A stretch of 64,000 nucleotides of DNA. Source: Candidatus Tectimicrobiota bacterium. GTDB taxonomy: Bacteria > Tectomicrobia > Entotheonellia > Entotheonellales > Entotheonellaceae. The stretch lies in NCBI GenBank assembly GCA_026005175.1, contig BPKO01000001.1:682001-746000 (forward strand), in the 5' to 3' direction. A model generated the notes under the pieces. It had not been told where the DNA came from. It did not search any database and worked only from the letters and a program-made list of their open reading frames with translations. Every line of letters starts with the position of its first letter. Position 1 is the first letter of the stretch. Shown piece after piece: positions 36,067 through 48,387 of this stretch. Made by a program: the position numbers and the translations under genes.

Positions 36067-37480
36067 ATGACCCCTAGCGACGTTCTCAAGTTTGCCTCGG
36101 AGCACGGGGCCAAGATGCTCGACTTGCGCTTTCTCGACCTGCCAGGGCTGTGGCAGCACTTGACGGTGCCCATCAGCGAGCTGCGCGAGGAGGTGTTCAC
36201 CGAGGGGATCGGCTTTGACGGCTCGAGCATCCGTGGCTGGCAGGCCATCAACGCCAGCGACATGCTGGTCATTCCCGACCCCAACACGGCGCGCATGGAC
36301 CCCTTTACCAAAGAGCCGACGCTGGTGATGATTTGCGACATCGTCGACCCGGTGACGCGCGAGAACTACTCGCGCGACCCGCGCCACATCGCCAAGAAAG
36401 CCGAAGCCTACATGCGCGCCACGGGCATCGCCGACACCGCTTACTTCGGGGCCCGAGGCCGAGTTCTTCATCTTTGACGACATTCGCTACGAAAGCAATG
36501 AACACTCTGCTTTTTACTTTATAGACTCGGTCGAAGGGCAGTGGAACACCGGCCGCGACGAGAAGCCCAACCTGGGCTACAAGCCGCGCTACAAAGAAGG
36601 CTACTTCCCTGCCCCGCCCACCGACAGCCTGCAAGACATCCGCACCGAGATGGTGCTCCTCATGGAGCACCTGGGCATCCCGGTGGAAGCCCACCACCAC
36701 GAGGTGGCCACCGCTGGCCAGTGCGAAATCGACATGCGCTTTGACTCTCTGGTCAACATGGCCGACAAGCTGATGTGGTACAAGTACATCATCAAGAACG
36801 TGGCGCGCCGCCACAACAAGACCGCCACCTTCATGCCCAAGCCGCTGTTTAACGACAACGGCACCGGCATGCACACCCACCAGAGCCTGTGGAAGAATGG
36901 CCAGCCCCTCTTTGCCGGCGATGGCTACGCCGGCCTGAGCCAGACGGCGCTTTACTACATCGGCGGCATCCTCAAGCACGCCCCTGCCCTCTGCGCCCTG
37001 GTAGCCCCCACCACCAACTCCTACAAGCGGCTGGTGCCGGGCTTCGAAGCGCCGGTGAACCTGGCCTACTCGAGCCGCAACCGCAGCGCCGGGGTGCGCA
37101 TCCCTATGTACTCGCCCAGCCCCAAGGCCAAACGCATCGAGGTGCGCTTCCCCGATCCTTCCTGCAACCCCTACCTGGCCTTTGCCGCCATGCTCATGGC
37201 TGGCCTTGACGGCATCGAGAACCGTATCGATCCCGGCGAGCCGATGGACGTCGACCTCTACGAGCTGAGCCCGGCCGAGCTGAGCAAGGTGCCCTCGGTG
37301 CCTGGCTCCCTCGAAGAGGCCCTCGTGGCGCTGGAAAACGACCACGAGTTTCTCACCAAAGGGGATGTCTTTACCCAGGACGCGCTGGAGACGTGGATCA
37401 CCTACAAGCGCAAGCGCGAAATCGACCCGGTGCGCCTGCGGCCCCACCCCTACGAGTTCACGCTGTACTTTGACATCTAG
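36067..37480 (+). CDS. glnA: Type I glutamine synthetase GlnA, one-base frameshift
   Basis: ATP-dependent synthesis of glutamine from glutamate and ammonium; about 470 residues when joined. The N-terminal beta-grasp piece ([30 protein letters not shown]) is in one frame. Removing one G from the GGGG at 36448-36451 restores [13 protein letters not shown] and the rest of the catalytic domain ([44 protein letters not shown]). The Tyr of DVDLYELSP is the adenylylation site of GSI-beta enzymes. An essential gene broken at a homopolymer is most simply a sequencing error. Confidence 0.95.
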
Positions 37481-37487
37481 CCTGCAG

Positions 37488-37526
37488 GGCAGCCTCCCGC
37501 GGCCTGGCCGCGGGAAGCTGCCTTTT
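37488..37526 (+). terminator. Terminator after glnA
   Basis: GGCAGC and CCCGCGG pair with CCGCGGG and GCTGCC around CCTGG, with a CT/AA internal mismatch, then TTTT. It overlaps the last codon of the convergent Fur-rubrerythrin gene. Confidence 0.85.
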
Positions 37527-38484
37527 AGGAGGGCGCCGCGGAGAGGTGCAGCGCCTGGTATGCCTCGCGAATGAGGCGCAGGTGCCGCCGCTCTTCGCTG
37601 GCAAACTTCTTGAAAATGGCCTTTCCTTTGGGGTACTCCACCTTGTCGGCGTAGTCGTTGAAAAACTCGTACGAGCGCCGCTCGGCGCTCATCGCCAGGT
37701 AGAGCACCTCGGCGGGGCTGGCTGCCTGTACCAGCTGCACGATGTGCTGGCGGCTCTTGGGGAAAATGCTCTCCAGCCGCTCGTAGTCAAAGTAAAGCAG
37801 CGGTGGCTCGGCATTCAGCCAGGGGTGCGCCTGCCGCAGCGCCTCGTACTCGCGCTGCAAAGCGGCCAAGTGGCGCTTTTCTTCGTCGACCAGGCGGGTA
37901 AAGACGGCGCGCGTGGCCGCGTCGCGCGTCACTTCCAGAGCGCGGCTGTAAAAGTGCAGTCCCCGCTCCTCGTTGGCAATAGCCACCTGCAAGGCGTCGC
38001 GCGACAAAATGATGTCCAAGTCTTTGCCCCGCCGCCCCTGGGGCACCGTGGCCCGGCTACAGTCGCGGCAAACGCTGAGAATGCGCACCGCATGCGTCTG
38101 CGGCAAAAAGGCGTGGTCTTCCTGCACCTTGCGCAGCAGCGTGTCGAGTTCAGGGCTGAGAAACTCCAGGGTGCGGTTGCACGCGGTGCAGATGATGTGG
38201 TGGTGCTGGAAGCGGTCGGGCTCGTAGCGCAGCGTGCCGTCCCCGTAGTCGACGGTGCGCGCCAAGCCGCACGCCTGCAAGAGCTTCAGGGTGCGGTAGA
38301 CGGTGGCAAAGCCGACGCGCGGGTTCTTGCGGCGCACCTGCTCGTAGAGCTCTTGCGCCGAAAGGTGGGTCTCTGCCGCCAGAAAGACCTCAAGAATGTC
38401 CCGACGCGGCTTGGAGTGCTTGAGGTTTCTGGCCCGCAGGAAGTTCTCGAACACCTCCACTTCGTGCTGCATGGGCCGCTTCAT
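37525..38484 (-). CDS. Fur-family regulator fused to a rubrerythrin/ferritin-like diiron domain
   Basis: 319 residues. Residues 1-145 are a full Fur-type repressor: winged helix with FATVYRTLKLLQACGLA, the metal site HHHIICTACNRTLEF and a second CxxC (CRDCS). Residues 160-319 form a four-helix ferritin-like bundle with the repeated ligands E in ANEERGLHFY, DEEKRHLAAL, then AERRSYEFF and SEERRHLRLI. The fusion would join metal- or peroxide-sensing repression to a diiron peroxidase or iron-binding module. It might control the Fur boxes further upstream in this region; that is inference. ATG 38484 or 38472 are both possible starts. Confidence 0.88.
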   Translation of the reverse strand: MKRPMQHEVEVFENFLRARNLKHSKPRRDILEVFLAAETHLSAQELYEQVRRKNPRVGFATVYRTLKLLQACGLARTVDYGDGTLRYEPDRFQHHHIICTACNRTLEFLSPELDTLLRKVQEDHAFLPQTHAVRILSVCRDCSRATVPQGRRGKDLDIILSRDALQVAIANEERGLHFYSRALEVTRDAATRAVFTRLVDEEKRHLAALQREYEALRQAHPWLNAEPPLLYFDYERLESIFPKSRQHIVQLVQAASPAEVLYLAMSAERRSYEFFNDYADKVEYPKGKAIFKKFASEERRHLRLIREAYQALHLSAAPS

Positions 38485-38543
38485 CCCCTCCCTGGGACGA
38501 TCAAGACCTGCTGGCAGATTGTACTGAACCGGCAGGCCGGCGG

Positions 38544-39041
38544 TCAACGTGTTGCCCCGCTCCACATCTCCCACAGGGCGACGAGCAGCATGCCGCCGTA
38601 GCCCAGCCACATCGCCACCCAGGCCAGCAGCTGCAGCAAGGCCCAGGCCGGGGAGAGGTAACGCAGCAGCCAGTAAGCCGCCAGGTCGCCCAGGGAGCCC
38701 CCCAGGGCCAGCAGGATAAGTGCGGCTTTCCAGGGAGTGGCAAGGCCGGTGGCCAGGCAGAGGTGGGCCAAAATCAAGAACACCACCCCCATCATGAAGG
38801 CGTGGAAGTGGGTGAGCTCCAGGAGCTCGCCAAAGGTCTTGGGAAAGGCCATCGCCTCGCCCAGCTCGCCGCCGCGAAAGTATGCCGCGATGCGCGCCAG
38901 CGAGGGGCCGATGCGCCACAGCTGCATGACACCGTTGGTGCCCAGCCCCAAGGCGACAAAGAGCAAAAAGCCCGTGTACACCAGTTTGACCTCGCGCTGC
39001 GCCCGGCGCAGGCGAAAGCCGACTCGGACGAAGTCGCGCAT
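38544..39041 (-). CDS. Integral membrane protein of flavin/iron operon
   Basis: 165 residues with four predicted membrane helices: VYTGFLLFVALGLGTNGVMQ, HFHAFMMGVVFLILAHLCLA, ALILLALGGSLGDLAAYWLL and ALLQLLAWVAMWLGYGGMLL. Conserved-looking His residues in ELTHFHAFMMG and LAHLC could bind haem, but no family is recognised. Its start overlaps the apbE stop by one base (TGATG), so it is co-translated with the flavin-transfer genes. A role in passing electrons to the periplasmic FMN protein is plausible but unproven. Confidence 0.75.
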   Translation of the reverse strand: MRDFVRVGFRLRRAQREVKLVYTGFLLFVALGLGTNGVMQLWRIGPSLARIAAYFRGGELGEAMAFPKTFGELLELTHFHAFMMGVVFLILAHLCLATGLATPWKAALILLALGGSLGDLAAYWLLRYLSPAWALLQLLAWVAMWLGYGGMLLVALWEMWSGATR

Positions 39042-39904
39042 CAGACGCTCTCCTGCCAGAAGCGGCGCAAGCCAGGGGTGCAGCACGGCACGCCGCGGGG
39101 GCCGACGTATAGGACCTCCACGCCGCGGAAGCGCTTGAGCAGCCGCCGCCAGCGGCGGCCGTAAACCAGTACCGCGGTGCTCAGGGCTTCGGCCAAAGTG
39201 GCCGTGGGGGCCAGCACGGTGCTTTGCCGCCACTGCCTGAGGGGCTGGCCGCGGCGCGGGTCGACCACGTGCCCTATGCCCGGGGCCAGCTCGCGCCCCA
39301 AAGTGCAGGAGGTGGCCAGCGCCCCTTCCCCCATCCAGAGCAGGCCCAGCCACGCGCCTTCCTGCCGGCCGCGCACCGCGATGGGCCAGCGCTCGCCGCC
39401 CGGCGGCCTCCCCAGGGCGTAGAGGCTGCTGTCGCCAAAGTTGACAAACGCGCAGCGCACGCCCCCGCGGCGCAGGCGCGCCACCACGCGGTCCACCGCA
39501 TACCCCTTGCCGATGCCTCCCAAGTCGAGGCAGGCCCCCGGCGCCAGCGCCACCCAGCCCGGCGCCGGCAGCGAGAAGGCCGGCCGCGGCACGCCAGCAG
39601 AGCCCTGGCGCAGCACGCCGCCCACCGCCACATCAAAAGTGCCGCCGGTGCGGCGCTGCAGCCGCGCACAGCGCTTTAGCAGGGTCCACAGCGGCCGCGG
39701 CACGCGCACCGCGCCGCGGCCGGCCTGGCGGTTGAGGCGGCTGAGGGCACTGACGGGGTCGTGAGCGCTCAACAGCCCTTCCAGGCGCCGCACATCTTCA
39801 GCGCAGCGCCGCAGCAAAAAGCGGCCGTGCGCTTCGGGTATACCAAAGAGGGCCACATCGAGCAGGGTGCCCATGGCGTAGTGGAGCTCGCGCACTCCCT
39901 TCAT
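39041..39904 (-). CDS. apbE: ApbE-type FAD:protein FMN transferase
   Basis: 287 residues. ApbE enzymes use FAD to attach FMN covalently to a Ser/Thr in exported target proteins. Visible motifs: LHYAMGTLLDVALFG at the start, SALSRLNRQAG, the nucleotide-binding CLDLGGIGKGYAVDRVV, and DPRRGQPL then STVLAPTATLAEALSTAV with metal-site positions. No signal peptide is evident from ATG 39904, so either the start is internal or it acts in the cytoplasm. It overlaps the FMN-binding gene (its likely substrate) by four bases. Confidence 0.92.
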   Translation of the reverse strand: MKGVRELHYAMGTLLDVALFGIPEAHGRFLLRRCAEDVRRLEGLLSAHDPVSALSRLNRQAGRGAVRVPRPLWTLLKRCARLQRRTGGTFDVAVGGVLRQGSAGVPRPAFSLPAPGWVALAPGACLDLGGIGKGYAVDRVVARLRRGGVRCAFVNFGDSSLYALGRPPGGERWPIAVRGRQEGAWLGLLWMGEGALATSCTLGRELAPGIGHVVDPRRGQPLRQWRQSTVLAPTATLAEALSTAVLVYGRRWRRLLKRFRGVEVLYVGPRGVPCCTPGLRRFWQESV

Positions 39905-40464
39905 GGCGGCTTCCCAAACAGCACTTGCACCAGGGCCAGGGCCTTGCGCACGCCGCGGCCGATGCTGTAGCACGACAGCGTGGCGCCGGTGATGTTGCGG
40001 ATGTCGCGGTAAGGCAGCAGGGCATCGCGCAGGCTCTTGCCGGTGTACTGGGCCAGGAAGCGGCCGTAGCGCACCTCGCCGCCGTAAGGCTCGCGGTAGA
40101 CCATCACCGCCACGTCCTGCACCCGCCCGTTGGGGCGTACGCCGACGATAAAGGTAATCGGGCGGTGCTTGCCGATTTCCTCGACGATGACCCCGTAGCC
40201 CAGCAGGCGCTCCCCCCGCTTGGCCTTGAAAATTACGTATTCGGGCTCCCACAGCGAGGGGCGCGTGGCGCCCAGAAGCGCCTGCACCTTGGCGCGCAGC
40301 GCCGGGGTGGCAGGCACCACCAGGCGCTCAAAGGCGGTGGCGCGGGGAAACACCGCCGCCGGGGCCTCCGTCTCGCTGAGGTAGACGCCAGCCTGCGCCG
40401 CGGCGCGCGCCGCCAGCGCGAGCGGCGTCAAGAGCCCCTGCAAGAAGGCGCGGCGCTGCAGCAT
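39901..40464 (-). CDS. Exported FMN-binding-domain protein (ApbE substrate)
   Basis: 187 residues. A twin-Arg-like signal (RRAFLQGLLTPLALAARAAA) directs export. The FMN-binding domain lies in the second half, ending with NITGATLSCYSIGRG, where the Thr of TGAT-x-S is the expected site of covalent FMN attachment by ApbE. The middle shows GYGVIVEEIGKHRPITFIVG, typical of these domains. Predicted periplasmic one- or two-electron carrier. It starts four bases before the upstream porin stop region and overlaps apbE, so the three are one unit. Confidence 0.88.
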   Translation of the reverse strand: MLQRRAFLQGLLTPLALAARAAAQAGVYLSETEAPAAVFPRATAFERLVVPATPALRAKVQALLGATRPSLWEPEYVIFKAKRGERLLGYGVIVEEIGKHRPITFIVGVRPNGRVQDVAVMVYREPYGGEVRYGRFLAQYTGKSLRDALLPYRDIRNITGATLSCYSIGRGVRKALALVQVLFGKPP

Positions 40465-40468
40465 GGCT

Positions 40469-41887
40469 TTAGAAGCCAAAAGCCACCCCCACCAAGAACG
40501 CCTGCGCGGTATCTTCGTCTTCCTGAGCCGGCAGGAAGTTGGTGAGCCCGGCCAAGGAATCGGCGTCGGTAAAGGTGACTTCATAGGCCAGGGAAAACAC
40601 CCACAGCGGCGTCGGCCGGTACGCCAGGCCCAGCGTCAGGCGGTTCAGCGTGGCGTCGGCTGTCTCAAAAGCGGTGAGCACCCCATTGGCAAACTTAACC
40701 TCGGTGACCCGCTTGTCAAAAAAGACCTGCTCCCAGCGCAGCACGGGGACAAGCTGCGGGTTGGCAAAGCCCCGCCCCAGAACCGTCTGGCTCAGGGCGG
40801 CCGGCCAGAAAGGCAGGCGCAGCTCCACCCAGTAGCCGCTTTTGCTGCGCGCCAACTCGGCCAGCTCGAACTCGATTTCCGACTCAAACGCTGGGCTGGC
40901 GGCGCTGGGGGTGGCAGCCGCCTGCGTCACCACCGTGCGGGCAAAGGCGCGGGCCACCGCTTCGATGTTCTCCCAGCGGGTAAAGACGTACTCCCCTTCC
41001 ACTTCGAGCGGCCCGAGGCTCACCTTGCCGTCCACCCCCACCGACCACACGGTCTCCTCGGCGTCAAGAAAATCGGGGGTATACTCGCCCACGTAGCCCG
41101 AAACGGCCAGCTCGTAGCCCAGAAGCGGGCTAAGAAGCAGGCGCCCCACCACCGCCTTGTTCTCGTTGAAGTCTTTGTCAAAAGGGCCGGCCACCGGCCG
41201 GAACACGGCCTCCAGCTCCAGCTTGTCACGGCTTTCCAGGCGCGTCTGGGCGATTTCTTCCACCTCGGCGTCGAGCACCACGCCGTTGACCAGGTAGAGC
41301 TCGTAGCGCAGCAGCCCCTGGCGCCCCAGCGGCGTCTCGCCGGCAAAGCCAGCGCCCAGCTCGGTCCAGGCCGCCTTGGCGGGCAGCACCGGCACCCCGC
41401 GGTCCACCAGCGGCCGGCGCGGCAGGTTCCAGCGGTTGTCGTCATGGAAAATATTGAACCGCCCTAGCGGCGGCAGCACCGCTCCCACCCGCAAGTTAAA
41501 AAACGGCGCCAAGTCGTATTGTACCCAGGCCTGCTCCAGCTTGATTTCCGACTTGTTCGAGCCTTCCACCGCCTGCTCCACTTTGAGCCCGCCTTCGGTG
41601 GCCTCTACTTCGCGCTCCAGCTCCAAGGCAGTAAAGCGCTCGAATTCCAGCTCGAAGACAAAGCGCAAGCGCTCAGCGGGCGCGGCGTCCAGCGTCAGCA
41701 CGAAGCGCCGGAAGTCAAAGCCAGCGTTGCTCTCTTCCAAGTCGTTGGCCTCGAACTTGACCGAGCCGTAGCCGCCCAGGCGTACCCGCCCCGCCACCGC
41801 CTCGTACACCGCCTGCTGCGCCTGCCCGCTGCCTGCAAGACTCACCAGCCCCAGCACTGCGGCCCAGACAACCCGTCTCCGTCGCAT
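40469..41887 (-). CDS. Outer-membrane porin (phosphate-selective O/P-like)
   Basis: 472 residues. Signal peptide RRVVWAAVLGLVSLAGSGQA, then VRLGGYGSVKFEANDLEESN and FDFRRFVLTLDAAPAERLRF, characteristic of OprO/P-like 16- to 18-strand barrels. AWVQYDLAPFFNLRVGAVLP and FNIFHDDNRWNLPRRP follow. The last strand AFLVGVAFGF ends in Phe, as needed for barrel assembly. ATG 41887 follows GGAGGGG. Preceded by a Fur box, so probably induced under iron limitation; its cargo could be iron chelates. Confidence 0.87.
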   Translation of the reverse strand: MRRRRVVWAAVLGLVSLAGSGQAQQAVYEAVAGRVRLGGYGSVKFEANDLEESNAGFDFRRFVLTLDAAPAERLRFVFELEFERFTALELEREVEATEGGLKVEQAVEGSNKSEIKLEQAWVQYDLAPFFNLRVGAVLPPLGRFNIFHDDNRWNLPRRPLVDRGVPVLPAKAAWTELGAGFAGETPLGRQGLLRYELYLVNGVVLDAEVEEIAQTRLESRDKLELEAVFRPVAGPFDKDFNENKAVVGRLLLSPLLGYELAVSGYVGEYTPDFLDAEETVWSVGVDGKVSLGPLEVEGEYVFTRWENIEAVARAFARTVVTQAAATPSAASPAFESEIEFELAELARSKSGYWVELRLPFWPAALSQTVLGRGFANPQLVPVLRWEQVFFDKRVTEVKFANGVLTAFETADATLNRLTLGLAYRPTPLWVFSLAYEVTFTDADSLAGLTNFLPAQEDEDTAQAFLVGVAFGF

Positions 41888-41906
41888 CGCGCCCCCCTCC
41901 AAAATT

Positions 41907-41938
41907 GATCTTGAAAATAGTTTTCAGGATCAGATAAT
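41907..41938 (+). promoter_or_regulatory. Fur box and divergent promoter between porin operon and iron transporter
   Basis: TGAAAAT-A-GTTTTCA (41912-41926) fits the Fur 7-1-7 palindrome at 11 of 14 positions and sits inside a 25-base near-palindrome ending in GATC on both sides (41907-41931). For the plus strand, TTGAAA (41911-41916), 16-base spacer and GATAAT (41933-41938) form a promoter that Fur would block. Confidence 0.75.
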
Positions 41939-41987: not shown

Positions 41988-42992
41988 ATGGGACGTGGGC
42001 GCCTGTTTTGCTCTCTTGTTGGCCTGGTGGGGCTGGCTCTGATGCTGCCGGCGGCGGAGGCCGCCGAGGTGGTGGTTTACTCTTCGCGCATCGAGCAGCT
42101 CATCAAGCCGATGTTTGATGCCTTCACCGCCGCCAGTGGCATTCCGGTGCGGTACTTTACGGCCAGCGAGGCCGAACTCATCGAGCGGCTCAAGGCCGAA
42201 GGGGCCAACACCCCGGCCGACCTCTTTATGACCGTGGACGCCGGCAACCTCTGGCTTGCCGAGCAGGCCGGCCTGCTTCAGGGCGTGGCCTCGCCGGTGA
42301 TCGCCCGCCACATCCCGGCCCACCTGCGCGCCAAGGACAACGCCTGGGTGGGGCTTTCGGTGCGAGCGCGCCCCATCATGTACAGCAGCGAGCGCGTCAT
42401 GCCCGAAGAACTCTCCACGTACGAAGCGCTGGGGGATCCCAAGTGGCGAGGCCGGCTCTGCCTGCGCACCTCGCGCAAAGTGTACACGCAGTCGCTGGTG
42501 GCCGCGATGCTCAAGGCCCTGGGAGAAGCGCGCACGGAAGCGGTGCTGCGCGCCTGGATGGCCAACGAGCCGCGCATTTTCAACAGCGACACCAAAATGC
42601 TGGAGGCGATTGCCGCCGGCCAGTGCGACGTCACCATCGCCAACACCTACTATCTGGCCCGCCTCAAGGCCAAGGATCCCGACTTTCCGGTGGCGGTCTT
42701 CTGGCCCAACCAGCAAGACCGCGGCGTGCATGTCAACATCTCCGGTGCCGGCATCACTCGCCACGCCAAGCACCGCCAGGAGGCCCTGCGGCTGCTAGAG
42801 TTCCTGAGCGGGCCGGAGGCGCAGCGGCTTTACGCCGACGCCAACTACGAGTACCCAGCCAATCCGGCGGTAAAACCCCATCCCCTGATTGCCGCCTGGG
42901 GTACCTTTAAAGCCGATACCGTCGACGTGGCCGTCTTTGGCGAGTTGCAGGCGGCGGCGGTGAAGCTGCTCGACCGTGTGGGCTACCGCTAA
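41988..42992 (+). CDS. fbpA: Ferric-iron ABC transporter substrate-binding protein (FbpA/FutA-like)
   Basis: 334 residues, exported (signal LVGLVGLALMLPAAEAAE). The fold starts VVVYSSRIEQLIKPMFDAF and includes GISVRAR-type segment at about 120-130, FNSDTKMLEAIAAGQCDVTI and the iron-ligand tyrosines in ANTYYLARL. ISGAGITRHAKHRQEALRLL is the typical lobe-2 segment. Binds ferric iron in the periplasm and delivers it to FbpBC. Follows a Fur-box promoter and precedes the permease by 10 bases. Confidence 0.93.
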   Translation: MGRGRLFCSLVGLVGLALMLPAAEAAEVVVYSSRIEQLIKPMFDAFTAASGIPVRYFTASEAELIERLKAEGANTPADLFMTVDAGNLWLAEQAGLLQGVASPVIARHIPAHLRAKDNAWVGLSVRARPIMYSSERVMPEELSTYEALGDPKWRGRLCLRTSRKVYTQSLVAAMLKALGEARTEAVLRAWMANEPRIFNSDTKMLEAIAAGQCDVTIANTYYLARLKAKDPDFPVAVFWPNQQDRGVHVNISGAGITRHAKHRQEALRLLEFLSGPEAQRLYADANYEYPANPAVKPHPLIAAWGTFKADTVDVAVFGELQAAAVKLLDRVGYR

Positions 42993-43002
42993 AGGAGGCC
43001 TG

Positions 43003-44622
43003 ATGCGCTGGACCCCCTGGCCGCTGGCCGCCGCCCTGGTGGCCCTGCTGGTGGCCACCCCCCTTTTGGTGGTGGCGGCTTCCCTGCTGACGCCGAGCCT
43101 TGAGGTATGGCGCCACCTGTGGCAGACGCAACTGCCCGGGCTCATCGCCCACACCCTGGCGCTGATGGCCGGGGTGGGCCTGGGCGCCGGGGGGCTGGGC
43201 ACCGGCCTGGCCTGGCTGGTGGCCACTTACCGCTTTCCCGGCCACGCCTGGCTGGAGTGGCTCCTCGTCTTGCCGCTGGCGGTGCCGACGTACGTGATGG
43301 GCTTTGTCTTTCTTGGCCTCTTTGACTACGCCGGCCCGGTGCAGCGCTTGTGGCGCGGTCTTTTTGGCGCCGGGGCCTGGTTTCCCGAGGTGGCCTCTTA
43401 CGGCGGCGTGGTGGGGGTGATGAGCCTGGTGCTTTACCCTTATGTCTACGTGCTGGCGCGGGCGGCGTTCCTGGCGCAGTCGGCCACCTTGCTGGAAGCG
43501 GCCAGGGCGCTGGGCGCCCGGCGAGCAGAAGTCTTCTGGCGCGTGGCGCTGCCCCTGGCCCGCCCGGCCATCGCCGCCGGGGTGGCGCTGGCCGTCATGG
43601 AGGCCCTGGCCGACTTTGGCACGGTGGCCATATACAACTACCCGACCTTTACCGTAGCCATTTACCGCGTCTGGTTTGGCCTCTTCGACCGCGGCGCCGC
43701 CACCGAGCTGGCCGCCTTGCTCCTGACCTTCACCCTGACCCTGTTTTTTCTCGAGCGCTGGCTGCGCGGGCAAGCCCGCTTCGCCGCGGGCAGCAGCCTG
43801 CGCCCGCGGCAGCCGGTGCGGCTGCGCGGCTGGCGGGCAGGGCTGGCCACCGCTGCCGCCACCGCCGTGGTGGCGGTGGCCTTTGGCCTGCCGGTGGGCC
43901 AGCTGCTGGGGTGGACCCTTGCCAGCGTGGGTGGCAGCGCGTATGATGCCCACTACCTGCAGCTGGTGCGCAACACCGTGCTGCTGGCCGCCCTCACCGC
44001 TGTGGTGGCGCTGGTGGCGGCGGTGGTGGTGGCTTACGGGCTCAGGCTGAGCCGCAGTCGCTTCGTGGCGTTTTGCGGGCGCTTGGCCACCCTGGGCTAC
44101 GCCCTGCCGGGGTCGGTGATCGCCGTGGGGGTGCTGGGGCCGCTGAGCTTCCTTGATCGCACCCTCGACGGCTGGCTGCGCGCTACCTGGGGTGTGTCGA
44201 GCGGCCTGCTGCTCACCGGCTCCTTTGCCGGCTTGGTCTTTGCGTACGTGGTGCGCTTTTTGGCCATCAGCTGCCAGGCGGTGGAAGCCGGCCTGGCGGC
44301 CATTACCCCGAGCATGGACATGGCCGGGCGCTCCTTGGGGGCTACCGCGGGAGGGGTGCTGTGGCGCCTGCACTTGCCGCTGCTGCGCGGCGGCCTGTGC
44401 GGTGCCGCCTTGCTGGTGTTTGTCGACGTCATGAAGGAGATGCCGGCGACGCTGCTGCTGCGGCCTTTTGGGTACAATACCCTGGCGGTGCGCATTTGGG
44501 AGCTAACTTCGGAGTCTTTGTGGGAAGCGGCGGCGCTGCCGGCGCTCACCCTGGTGGCCGCCGGCCTGCTCCCGGTGGCGGTGCTGGTGCGCCGCAGCCG
44601 GCGCCCCGGGGCAGCCCCTTAA
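43003..44622 (+). CDS. fbpB: Ferric-iron ABC transporter permease (FbpB-like, fused two-domain)
   Basis: 539 residues, about 12 membrane helices in two homologous halves, each with an EAA loop: EAARALGARRAEVFWRVALP and AGRSLGATAGGVLWRLHLPL. This double-length arrangement is standard for FbpB. FVDVMKEMPATLLLRPFG is also characteristic of iron permeases. ATG 43003 is preceded by AAAGGAGG. Works with FbpA and FbpC in the inner membrane. Confidence 0.94.
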   Translation: MRWTPWPLAAALVALLVATPLLVVAASLLTPSLEVWRHLWQTQLPGLIAHTLALMAGVGLGAGGLGTGLAWLVATYRFPGHAWLEWLLVLPLAVPTYVMGFVFLGLFDYAGPVQRLWRGLFGAGAWFPEVASYGGVVGVMSLVLYPYVYVLARAAFLAQSATLLEAARALGARRAEVFWRVALPLARPAIAAGVALAVMEALADFGTVAIYNYPTFTVAIYRVWFGLFDRGAATELAALLLTFTLTLFFLERWLRGQARFAAGSSLRPRQPVRLRGWRAGLATAAATAVVAVAFGLPVGQLLGWTLASVGGSAYDAHYLQLVRNTVLLAALTAVVALVAAVVVAYGLRLSRSRFVAFCGRLATLGYALPGSVIAVGVLGPLSFLDRTLDGWLRATWGVSSGLLLTGSFAGLVFAYVVRFLAISCQAVEAGLAAITPSMDMAGRSLGATAGGVLWRLHLPLLRGGLCGAALLVFVDVMKEMPATLLLRPFGYNTLAVRIWELTSESLWEAAALPALTLVAAGLLPVAVLVRRSRRPGAAP

Positions 44623-44634
44623 GAGGCACGCGAC

Positions 44635-45669
44635 GTGGCGTTTTTGCAGCTCAAAGGCCTGGCCAAACGCTACCGGCCGCACGAGCCGCCAGCGGTAGAG
44701 GACCTCAGCTTCGGCGTGGCGCAGGGGGAAATCGTGGCCCTGCTGGGGCCCAGCGGCTGCGGCAAGACGACGACGCTGCGCCTCATTGCCGGCTTTGAGC
44801 GCCCCGACGCCGGCAGCGTGGAGCTGGGCGGCACCCTGCTGGTCGACCGCCACCGCTTCGTGCCCCCCGAGCGGCGCGGCGTGGGCATGGTGTTTCAGGA
44901 CTTTGCGCTTTTTCCCCACCTCACGGTGGCCGCCAACGTGGCCTTTGGCCTGCGGCGGCTCGACGCCGCGGCGCGCGCCGCCCGCGTCGAGGAAATGCTC
45001 GCCTTGGTTGAGCTCACGGCCCTGGCGCGGCGCTACCCGCATGAGCTCTCCAGCGGCCAGCAGCAGCGCGTGGCCCTGGCGCGTGCCCTGGCGCCGCGCC
45101 CGGCGGTGCTGCTGCTCGATGAGCCCTTCAGCAACCTCGACGCCCGCCTGCGCTGGCAGATGCTGCACGAAGTACGCGCCCTGCTGCGCCGCCTGCACGT
45201 CACCGCCCTCTTTGTTACCCACGACCAGGAAGAAGCCTTTGCCCTGGCCGACCGCGTGGGGGTCATGCAGCAGGGGCGGCTGGAGCAGCTGGACACCCCC
45301 GAGGCCCTTTACTACGCGCCGCGCACCCGCTTTGTTGCCAGTTTTGTCGGCCCGGCCAGCTTCCTCCCCGGCCAGGTGACGGGCGGCGGCATCCTTACCG
45401 AGCTGGGCACCTTTCCCAACGACACCGGCCTTTCCCCCGGCGCCCGCGTCGAGGTCATGCTGCGACCCGACGCCTTGCACCTGCGCCCGCACCCGCAGGG
45501 CCAAGGACGCGTGGTGGCCCGCCACTTCCGCGGCCCCTTCACCCTCGTCGAGGTGCAGCTCCCCTCCGGCGCCCGCCTGCAGGCCGCCCTCTCCGGCACC
45601 GGCGCCCTGCCAAGCCGCGTGCACGTGGAAGTCGACCCGCAGCGCGCCGTTGCCTTCCCTTGCGCCTAG
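44635..45669 (+). CDS. fbpC: Ferric-iron ABC transporter ATPase (FbpC-like)
   Basis: 344 residues. Walker A is LLGPSGCGKTTTLRLIAG, the signature is LSSGQQQRVALARALA, Walker B is VLLLDEPFSNLDARL and the H-loop is VTHDQEEAF. A C-terminal TOBE-type regulatory region follows (VEVMLRPDALHL; GPFTLVEVQLPSGARL), as in FbpC. GTG 44635 is used with GAGG upstream; the permease stop lies 12 bases before. Last gene of the fbpABC operon. Confidence 0.95.
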   Translation: MAFLQLKGLAKRYRPHEPPAVEDLSFGVAQGEIVALLGPSGCGKTTTLRLIAGFERPDAGSVELGGTLLVDRHRFVPPERRGVGMVFQDFALFPHLTVAANVAFGLRRLDAAARAARVEEMLALVELTALARRYPHELSSGQQQRVALARALAPRPAVLLLDEPFSNLDARLRWQMLHEVRALLRRLHVTALFVTHDQEEAFALADRVGVMQQGRLEQLDTPEALYYAPRTRFVASFVGPASFLPGQVTGGGILTELGTFPNDTGLSPGARVEVMLRPDALHLRPHPQGQGRVVARHFRGPFTLVEVQLPSGARLQAALSGTGALPSRVHVEVDPQRAVAFPCA

Positions 45670-45711
45670 CACACCCACTTACAAGGGGGTGGCTTCCCTA
45701 GGGATTTTATG

Positions 45712-45734
45712 ATAATGAGAACTGTTCTCATTAT
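45712..45734 (+). promoter_or_regulatory. Fur box upstream of XRE regulator 1
   Basis: A perfect 11-1-11 palindrome, ATAATGAGAAC-T-GTTCTCATTAT, containing the 7-1-7 core TGAGAAC-T-GTTCTCA. It matches two overlapping Fur dimers and is the strongest Fur box in the window. It overlaps a GATAAT -10-like hexamer. Confidence 0.85.
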
Positions 45735-46010: not shown

Positions 46011-46093
46011 AGGGGCACTTTAAGAGGGGTGTCTGCAAGGGCGGGGCGGGCGTATATTGAGGGGCGGTGGAACCTTGGGAGAGGAGAAGGCCT

Positions 46094-46558
46094 ATGGACG
46101 TGCAAGCCGCCCTGCAAGTCTTGAACAAGGCCCTGGCGCTCGAGTATGCGGGGGTCTTGCAGTACCTGCAGCAGAGCTTCTTGGTGCAGGGGCCTTACCG
46201 CGAAGTGCATGCCGACTTTTTCCGCAAGCTGAGCGACGAGTGCCGCACGCACGCGGCTCGCCTCGGCACTTACATTGTGCTCCTCAACGGCGTCCCCACC
46301 GTGGAGCCGGCTCCCATCAGGCAGTCCACCGACCTCACCGAGATGCTCAAAAACAGCCTCGAGCTCGAGCGCGAGGCGTACAACACCTACCTTGAAGGCG
46401 TGCGCGTGGCGGCCGACGAGGTGCCGCTGCGCTTGCTGTGCGAGGAGCTTGCTTACGACGAGCGCCTGCACATGGAAGCGTTCGAAAAGATGCTGGCGCA
46501 GAAAGCCCTGCGCCTTGCCGACGCCGAGCGCGAGATCGTGCTTACCCGGAGTGCCTGA
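46094..46558 (+). CDS. Ferritin-like diiron protein (bacterioferritin-type bundle)
   Basis: 154 residues, four-helix bundle. Ligand pattern: Glu in NKALALEYAGVLQYLQQS, E and H in SDECRTHAARLG, Glu in ELEREAYNTYLEGV, and DERLHMEAFEKML. The spacing fits a diiron ferritin-like protein rather than Dps. It lacks the Met52-type haem ligand that would mark a true bacterioferritin as far as I can see. Start ATG 46094 follows GAGGAGAAGG. Role could be iron storage, ferroxidase or peroxide removal in the iron region. Confidence 0.8.
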   Translation: MDVQAALQVLNKALALEYAGVLQYLQQSFLVQGPYREVHADFFRKLSDECRTHAARLGTYIVLLNGVPTVEPAPIRQSTDLTEMLKNSLELEREAYNTYLEGVRVAADEVPLRLLCEELAYDERLHMEAFEKMLAQKALRLADAEREIVLTRSA

Positions 46559-47070: not shown

Positions 47071-47086
47071 GCCGCATCCTCAATAA

Positions 47087-47101
47087 TGATAATAATTCTC
47101 A
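47087..47101 (-). promoter_or_regulatory. Fur box upstream of XRE regulator 2
   Basis: TGATAAT-A-ATTCTCA fits the Fur 7-1-7 palindrome at 13 of 14 positions. It lies in the 37-base gap between the XRE gene and the gene before it. Confidence 0.8.
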
Positions 47102-47107
47102 TCCTCA

Positions 47108-47608
47108 TCATACGACATCGGGCGCCGCGGGTCCAGCCCCACGGAAATGGGGGTCGGCCAGGGTCTGCAGGGCCAGCACCTCCACCTCCTCGACGAGGCG
47201 CTCTTCGAGCTTGCGGAAGAAGGGCTCCGGGCGGCGCGCCACGCTCCACAGCAAGGCGGCCAGCCCTTTGCCCCGCAGCCTTGCCCGCTCCCGGGCCCAG
47301 CGCGCCGCCAGTTCGGCCAGCGGCTGCTCCCGGAAGCGCGGCGCCTCTGCCTGCACCTGCGCCGCCAGCAGCGCTTCCAGGTGCTGGGCCGCCGGCGCAC
47401 TGGCCCGTGCCAGCCGCACCAGGTCGGCCAGCAGCGCGGCGTCGCGCACCCCTTCCGGACGCGCGGCGCCGCAGAGCTGCACCCATGCCGCGGTTGCTGC
47501 CGTGCGGTCGAGCGCCAGCACGAGGAGCAGACGCAGGAGGCGAGGCGAGCAGGCGGCGAGCGGCCGCTGTGGCGTTTCGGGGGATGCTGGTGCGGCCGGC
47601 TCCGGCAT
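47108..47608 (-). CDS. Hypothetical helical protein in iron region
   Basis: 166 residues, Ala/Leu/Arg-rich and predicted almost wholly helical (LLRLLLVLALDRTAATAAWV; HLEALLAAQVQAEAPRFREQ; EERLVEEVEVLALQTLADPH). ATG 47608 is preceded by GAGGGAG. No family recognised. It follows the 71-residue protein by 22 bases and precedes the Fur box of XRE 2, suggesting it belongs to the operon that starts at the 48248 Fur box. Confidence 0.6.
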   Translation of the reverse strand: MPEPAAPASPETPQRPLAACSPRLLRLLLVLALDRTAATAAWVQLCGAARPEGVRDAALLADLVRLARASAPAAQHLEALLAAQVQAEAPRFREQPLAELAARWARERARLRGKGLAALLWSVARRPEPFFRKLEERLVEEVEVLALQTLADPHFRGAGPAAPDVV

Positions 47609-47630
47609 GGCCGCGCTCCCTCGCTGGGTC

Positions 47631-47846
47631 TCAGCAGCCCGCTTCGCCGCGCGGCGGCAGGAGCTCGGCGCGGCGCTGCGCCACCAGGGCGTCACGGGCC
47701 TCTCTTACCAGCAGGACCAAATCGGCAAAGGCCTGCTCGCGCAGGCGCAGGGTGACAAAGCCGCAGGCGAGGTGGATGACTCCGTCGGGACACTGAAAAA
47801 CGGCACCAAAGCCTTCTCTTTCGCTGAGCATGGGGATATCGGCCAT
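47631..47846 (-). CDS. Small conserved protein, paralog A (CPDGVIHL type)
   Basis: 71 residues. Core sequence: FQCPDGVIHLACGFVTLRLR followed by EQAFADLVLLVREARDALVA. It is about 40% identical by eye to the 70-residue protein at 47990, aligning without gaps from CP(D/E)G through the EQAF helix. A strand-turn-strand then helix layout is likely. ATG 47846 follows AAAGGAGAG. I do not recognise the family. Context makes it part of the Fur-controlled set. Confidence 0.7.
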   Translation of the reverse strand: MADIPMLSEREGFGAVFQCPDGVIHLACGFVTLRLREQAFADLVLLVREARDALVAQRRAELLPPRGEAGC

Positions 47847-48247: not shown

Positions 48248-48262
48248 TGATAATGAATTTCA
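48248..48262 (-). promoter_or_regulatory. Fur box upstream of small paralog B
   Basis: TGATAAT-G-AATTTCA fits the Fur 7-1-7 palindrome at 12 of 14 positions. It lies upstream of the minus-strand small-protein operon. Confidence 0.65.
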
Positions 48263-48387
48263 AAATCATGATACGTCGCCTGCAGGCGCCTGTAAACCTC
48301 CTTCTGTGGTGGTTTTTACACCATCGCAGAGGTTCTCCTGCGCCGCAGGGCGCTGGCAGCTCTCGCTGGCCGCCCCTCCTCAGGGGC

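Follow-up and report, generated by a model that had tools for sequence, protein, structure and literature searches.

A complete Fur regulator joined in one protein to a predicted diiron ferritin-like domain in a family of Candidatus Tectimicrobiota

In a Candidatus Tectimicrobiota genome, from a family with kinship to the sponge symbiont Entotheonella, we found a gene whose single protein product consists of a complete Fur regulator connected by a short linker to a ferritin-like four-helix bundle. The gene lies in a stretch of 64,000 nucleotides, the whole of which is referred to here as the window. The features of the gene are as follows, in window positions:
37525–38484, minus strand: Fur-diiron fusion gene, 319 aa from the ATG at 38484 (open reading frame and translation, full-length orthologues)
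ATG 38472, minus strand: alternative start of the fusion gene, 315 aa
38053–38472, minus strand: Fur domain, residues 5–144, a winged helix (Pfam FUR, matches to Fur structures in the PDB, residues invariant in four orthologues)
38029–38052, minus strand: interdomain linker, residues 145–152, with no stop and no ATG
37537–38028, minus strand: ferritin-like four-helix bundle with a putative diiron site, residues 153–316 (Pfam, AlphaFold model, structural matches, alignment to TM1526)
38518–38547, minus strand: predicted sigma-70-type promoter, TTGACC-N18-TACAAT (motif match)

The Pfam FUR match spans residues 19–135 (E 1.4e-29; 103.1 bits against a curated cut-off of 23.1), and with profile positions 2–120 of 121 covered the domain is complete and the protein belongs to PF01475. 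On the C-terminal half, the best stretch of the Rubrerythrin profile PF02915 covers residues 259–314 (E 3.6e-12; 47.3 bits against a cut-off of 22.8), and this profile matches all four orthologues of the fusion; DUF2383 matches residues 163–217 below threshold. Since the orthologues begin at the second ATG, 38472 is probably the true translation start. Promoter hexamers identical to those in the window, with a spacer of N17 or N18, stand 5′ of the gene in all four orthologues.

To exclude a false joining of two genes, we considered the orthologues and the junction. In a search of 60 related genomes, a full-length fusion without internal stop was present in all four genomes sampled of the family, at 65–69% identity, and a later class-wide search returned the same four. 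Besides the window's own genome, these are two single-contig chromosomes titled uncultured Candidatus Entotheonella sp. and one genome titled a proteobacterial MAG. The junction residues are collinear in the four orthologues save for a two-residue gap in the linker, and the proposed ligands of both halves are all invariant. For the two orthologues closest to each other, dN/dS amounts to 0.076 in the Fur half and 0.071 in the diiron half, values indicative of purifying selection on both. That neighbouring fur and rubrerythrin genes were falsely joined by an assembly error or frameshift is a practically negligible prospect: at least one probable indel is present in the assembly, but the identical in-frame junction recurs in three further, independent assemblies, of which two are single-contig chromosomes. 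The earlier note had described a Fur protein continuing in-frame into a ferritin-like bundle, and had named a stop codon or an assembly join near 38010–38050 (residues 145–160) as what would speak against it; no stop is found there, the frame is open in the window and in three further genomes, and the conserved junction rules out a join or a missed stop. It is also unlikely that the C-terminal half is translated on its own from an internal start, because the linker holds no ATG and no start codon occurs at a position common to the four orthologues. The indel mentioned above is in glnA (glutamine synthetase; 36067–37480, plus strand), which is split by a frameshift of one base at a GGGG run near 36450; a sequencing indel is the probable cause, a real mutation a possible one.

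Within the Fur half, the structural Zn site is formed by the CxxC pairs C99/C102 and C139/C142, in agreement with the earlier description of a complete Fur-type regulator with two such sites. The proposed sensing site consists of H40, E88, H94, H96 and E107. The equivalence of Fur and PerR positions was set by motif alignment, with B. subtilis PerR as reference. According to published criteria, members of the Fur subclass retain the His ligands and have Glu where PerR has Asp104, PerR proteins have Asp as the O-donor at positions 85 and 104, and Zur proteins have Cys replacing Asp85 and no equivalent of His37 (PMC4866751). Given that the His ligands are retained and that the O-donors are Glu rather than Asp, the Fur half is, by its ligand set, of the Fur type. 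A PerR-type, peroxide-sensing regulator is ruled out by E88 and E107 in all four orthologues in place of the Asp/Asp pair, and a Zur-type regulator by the presence of H40 and of E88 instead of Cys.

Each of the four family genomes carries one further Fur-family gene. In G000 (the window's genome) and G001 this gene is PerR-like, with His, Asp and Asp, while in G002 and G003 it is without the sensing His and is Zur-like. The fusion is thus the only Fur-type regulator detected in the four genomes, whose completeness of 77–93% means that a second Fur could be missing. In G000, the PerR-like gene (Asp/Asp) is followed by a rubrerythrin gene (L002, 1438–2359; G000:C1, about 473.9–474.8 kb). Compared with other Fur proteins (PF01475), the fusion shares the complete winged helix, both structural CxxC pairs, Fur-type ligands and Fur boxes near iron-uptake genes, but adds a ferritin-like domain of ~165 residues, where the matched Fur chains in the PDB are about 130–170 residues long.

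For the C-terminal half, AlphaFold2, run with the four-sequence alignment, gave a confident winged helix and a confident four-helix bundle at residues 153–316, most ten-residue blocks having pLDDT 70–92; the Fur dimerisation region was poorly predicted (pLDDT 40–56) and the model is of a monomer only, so that it does not fix the relative placement of the domains. Structural alignment of the bundle gave Z 14.5 (rmsd 3.3, 138 residues aligned) with the COG1633 protein 2oh3, Z 13.0 (rmsd 3.4, 139 aligned) with rubrerythrin 1ryt and about Z 13 with Dps-like proteins, within an overall range of Z 12–14.5 for ferritin-like proteins, and Z values of this size for helical bundles indicate fold, not function. 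By sequence, the only solved relative found to be collinear over nearly the whole domain is TM1526 (1vjx), to which the profile aligns at positions 22–166, keeping the Glu residues and the ExxH pairs in register.

There are two ExxH pairs, EEKRH (E202/H205) and EERRH (E298/H301), and ahead of each stands one helix Glu (E172 and E268, respectively), so that the pattern E...ExxH...E...ExxH is complete and its six residues are invariant; over the whole domain about half of the alignment columns are invariant in the four orthologues. These six residues are the proposed diiron ligands, and the domain looks able to hold two iron atoms. The two EExxH-type pairs of the earlier note are therefore present; its description of the domain as rubrerythrin-like stands for the ferritin-like bundle and the PF02915 match but not for the rubredoxin module, which is missing because no cysteine follows residue 142 (the last is C142, and residues 145–319 contain none). 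A canonical rubrerythrin is ruled out by the absence of the rubredoxin Fe(SCys)4 cysteines, for which reason we assign the C-terminal half, from its sequence, to the erythrin/COG1633 type. A site of four Glu and two His is of the erythrin or bacterioferritin type, and four Glu and two His are what the sequence of the diiron half offers. The residue at +3 after the third-helix ligand, where rubrerythrin has an extra Glu, is Ser in an ambiguous alignment: against the genome's own rubrerythrin, E273 can take the place of the extra Glu with a gap. The fusion shares with rubrerythrin (PF02915) and the COG1633/TM1526 type the four-helix bundle and its ligand pattern, and differs from them by the attached DNA-binding regulator and by having neither a rubredoxin domain nor a cysteine in this half. 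With no rubredoxin, a four-Glu, two-His site and TM1526 as the only solved relative found to be collinear by sequence, the peroxide reduction proposed in the earlier note is not indicated over iron sensing or iron oxidation.

The surroundings of the gene were then analyzed, with Fur boxes scored against the 19-bp consensus; the following features were located:
38544–41902, minus strand: tightly packed genes upstream of the fusion gene, for a porin-like, an FMN-binding, an ApbE and an unassigned membrane protein (Pfam, open reading frames)
41907–41931: two overlapping predicted Fur-box matches, between fbpA and the minus-strand string of genes whose last gene is the fusion (13/19 at 41907)
41988–45669, plus strand: fbpABC-type ABC transporter, putatively for Fe3+, comprising binding protein, permease and ATPase (Pfam ABC families)
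45711–45729: predicted Fur box (14/19)
47082–47106: predicted Fur box cluster (best match 16/19)
48249–48267: predicted Fur box (15/19)

The porin-like, FMN-binding, ApbE and membrane protein genes form a minus-strand string, divergent from fbpABC, of which the fusion gene is the last member; they are possibly a module for flavin-based extracytosolic ferric reduction. Gene order, sequence type and the Fur box suggest that the transporter is specific for Fe3+. Matches of at least 14/19 occur at 4 positions in the window, versus 0.0 expected per dinucleotide shuffle, and the four Fur boxes of the window, at 41907, 45711, 47082 and 48249, are well above chance, which bears out the placement of the gene at the edge of an iron region with four such boxes. 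The two strongest, at 47082–47106 and 48249–48267, are well away from the fusion gene; the open reading frame at 47086–47796, at the first of them, is without a Pfam match. A separate ferritin-like (PF00210) gene at 46067–46558 (plus strand) lies downstream of the box at 45711. In three of the four family genomes the fusion gene has a divergent fbpABC nearby, and the intergenic region between the divergent units contains a Fur box. The window is one of these cases; in G002 and G003 the fusion gene itself is the direct divergent neighbour of fbpABC, and a Fur-box-like site separates the two. In L034 and L035 an equivalent box is predicted in the interval from fbpA to the fusion gene, and L033, the fourth genome, has no adjacent fbpABC. 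Neither in the window nor in L033 was a Fur box predicted at the fusion gene's own promoter, which leaves autoregulation unsupported in these two cases.

As far as sampled, the fusion looks confined to this family. In a sampling of 386 genomes across the domain and some 45 others, about 425 genomes besides those of the family lacked it, and in the single sister-family genome of the class Fur is unfused. A scan for the diiron half in a collection of 84,980 species, which depends on exact matches to short peptide patterns and would overlook distant relatives, matched only the three relatives, and among plasmid records none covered 80% of the fusion protein. Phylum searches around G035 and G101 covered just 1 and 4 genomes and added little. 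Long-frame Fur matches in other lineages (L066–L072 and L076), inspected by eye, have no ferritin-like domain and were rejected as further fusions of this kind; all but one of them, a Fur-FeoA fusion, are ordinary Fur proteins, in most cases with a spurious extension upstream. The Fur-FeoA fusion (L070, G047:C122) is a minus-strand open reading frame of 227 aa with Fur and a C-terminal FeoA domain (Pfam FUR 6.7e-35, FeoA 2.1e-22); like the protein described here it has an iron-related domain C-terminal to Fur, but that domain is FeoA and not a diiron one. No published Fur-rubrerythrin or Fur-ferritin-like fusion was found in the open-access literature, which is weak evidence of absence. The architecture is apparently undescribed so far, although both component domains are already known.

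A coupling of Fur DNA binding to diiron chemistry is plausible, and three mechanisms by which the diiron domain might modulate Fur were considered: a sensor in cis, a local scavenger, and a domain for iron delivery or partner docking. We tentatively favour, at somewhat less than even confidence, the view that the fusion is the family's iron-responsive Fur repressor, which acquired a C-terminal diiron domain and is modulated by it in cis as a second sensor. We rank the sensor first because the Fur ligands are of the H2O2-insensitive kind, the diiron ligands are strictly kept, and there is no electron-donor module for an efficient peroxidase. The Fur half would bind Fe2+ and repress iron uptake from the Fur boxes, while the diiron half would be filled when iron is plentiful and would react with O2 or H2O2. 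Its metallation or redox state could then feed back on the Fur half via dimerisation, conformation or local iron supply, whereby iron sufficiency and oxidant stress would be integrated within one protein. The diiron domain would thus be a built-in second sensor, much like the diiron hemerythrin domains of FBXL5 or BRUTUS, which control iron regulators of eukaryotes. The stronger version, in which a Fur master repressor is gated in cis by the diiron centre as a combined sensor of iron sufficiency and of O2 or peroxide, and is an independently evolved bacterial counterpart of the eukaryotic diiron sensors, is more doubtful.

Rubrerythrin is an established peroxide reductase, and its role lends some weight to the idea that the diiron half acts in cis as a peroxidase or ferroxidase, consuming H2O2 or excess Fe2+ beside the Fur iron site and sparing it Fenton damage without any allosteric signal. 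PerR-rubrerythrin gene pairs and perR-rbr operons are known (PMC545781), one such pair is also present in the window's genome, a hydrogenase-rubrerythrin chimera has been proven to reduce H2O2 (PMC11926857), and all six metal ligand positions are retained. We nevertheless consider this unlikely: the domain has no rubredoxin, no cysteine and no obvious electron donor, the extra Glu specific to rubrerythrin is off its usual +3 spacing on the third long helix (with the alignment ambiguous), and regulators, being present in few copies, would make poor bulk scavengers.

Dimerisation is common among ferritin-like domains, and Fur proteins function as dimers or tetramers, so the bundle could in principle be a structural add-on for oligomerisation or stability only, with a vestigial metal site. 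This is improbable, since six of six ligand positions are invariant versus about half of the domain columns, and dN/dS is as low in the diiron half as in the Fur half. Slightly less improbable, though still quite unlikely, is that the role of the ferritin-like half is to dock with ferritin or bacterioferritin, or to pass iron to the Fur site, with no oxidant sensing. The ferritin-like domain of MbfA dimerises, and a section of the same source, headed as evidence of interaction, describes a two-hybrid assay with bacterioferritin (PMC4902296); a ferritin-like gene also lies within the same iron region of the window. Against such a role, no PF00210 ferritin was found in G002 despite the conserved fusion.

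Several known systems resemble the fusion in part. The PerR-rubrerythrin pairs of Desulfovibrio and Geobacter likewise link a Fur-family regulator to a rubrerythrin-type protein, but as two separate proteins and with PerR, not Fur, and the window's genome has its own pair elsewhere. In the iron exporter MbfA an erythrin-type ferritin-like domain is likewise fused to another iron-homeostasis module, but this partner is a membrane exporter, where here it is a repressor. Diiron hemerythrin domains have been proposed as iron sensors in plants (PMC12022348). The analogy that we propose with FBXL5 and BRUTUS is that of a diiron four-helix domain sensing iron or O2 and controlling an iron regulator; those proteins belong to unrelated families (hemerythrin, E3 ligase), are eukaryotic and act through protein degradation.

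Few bacterial regulators are as well studied as Fur, whose iron loading under oxidant stress and tuning to oxidants are debated. An apparent sole Fur-type regulator joined to a conserved diiron domain would be a natural construct in which to study diiron-to-repressor signalling of iron or oxidant status, and the fusion could be more than a new pairing of known domains if coupling is shown. Research on the group's sponge symbionts also concerns metal accumulation and natural products, which makes their iron control of interest in its own right.
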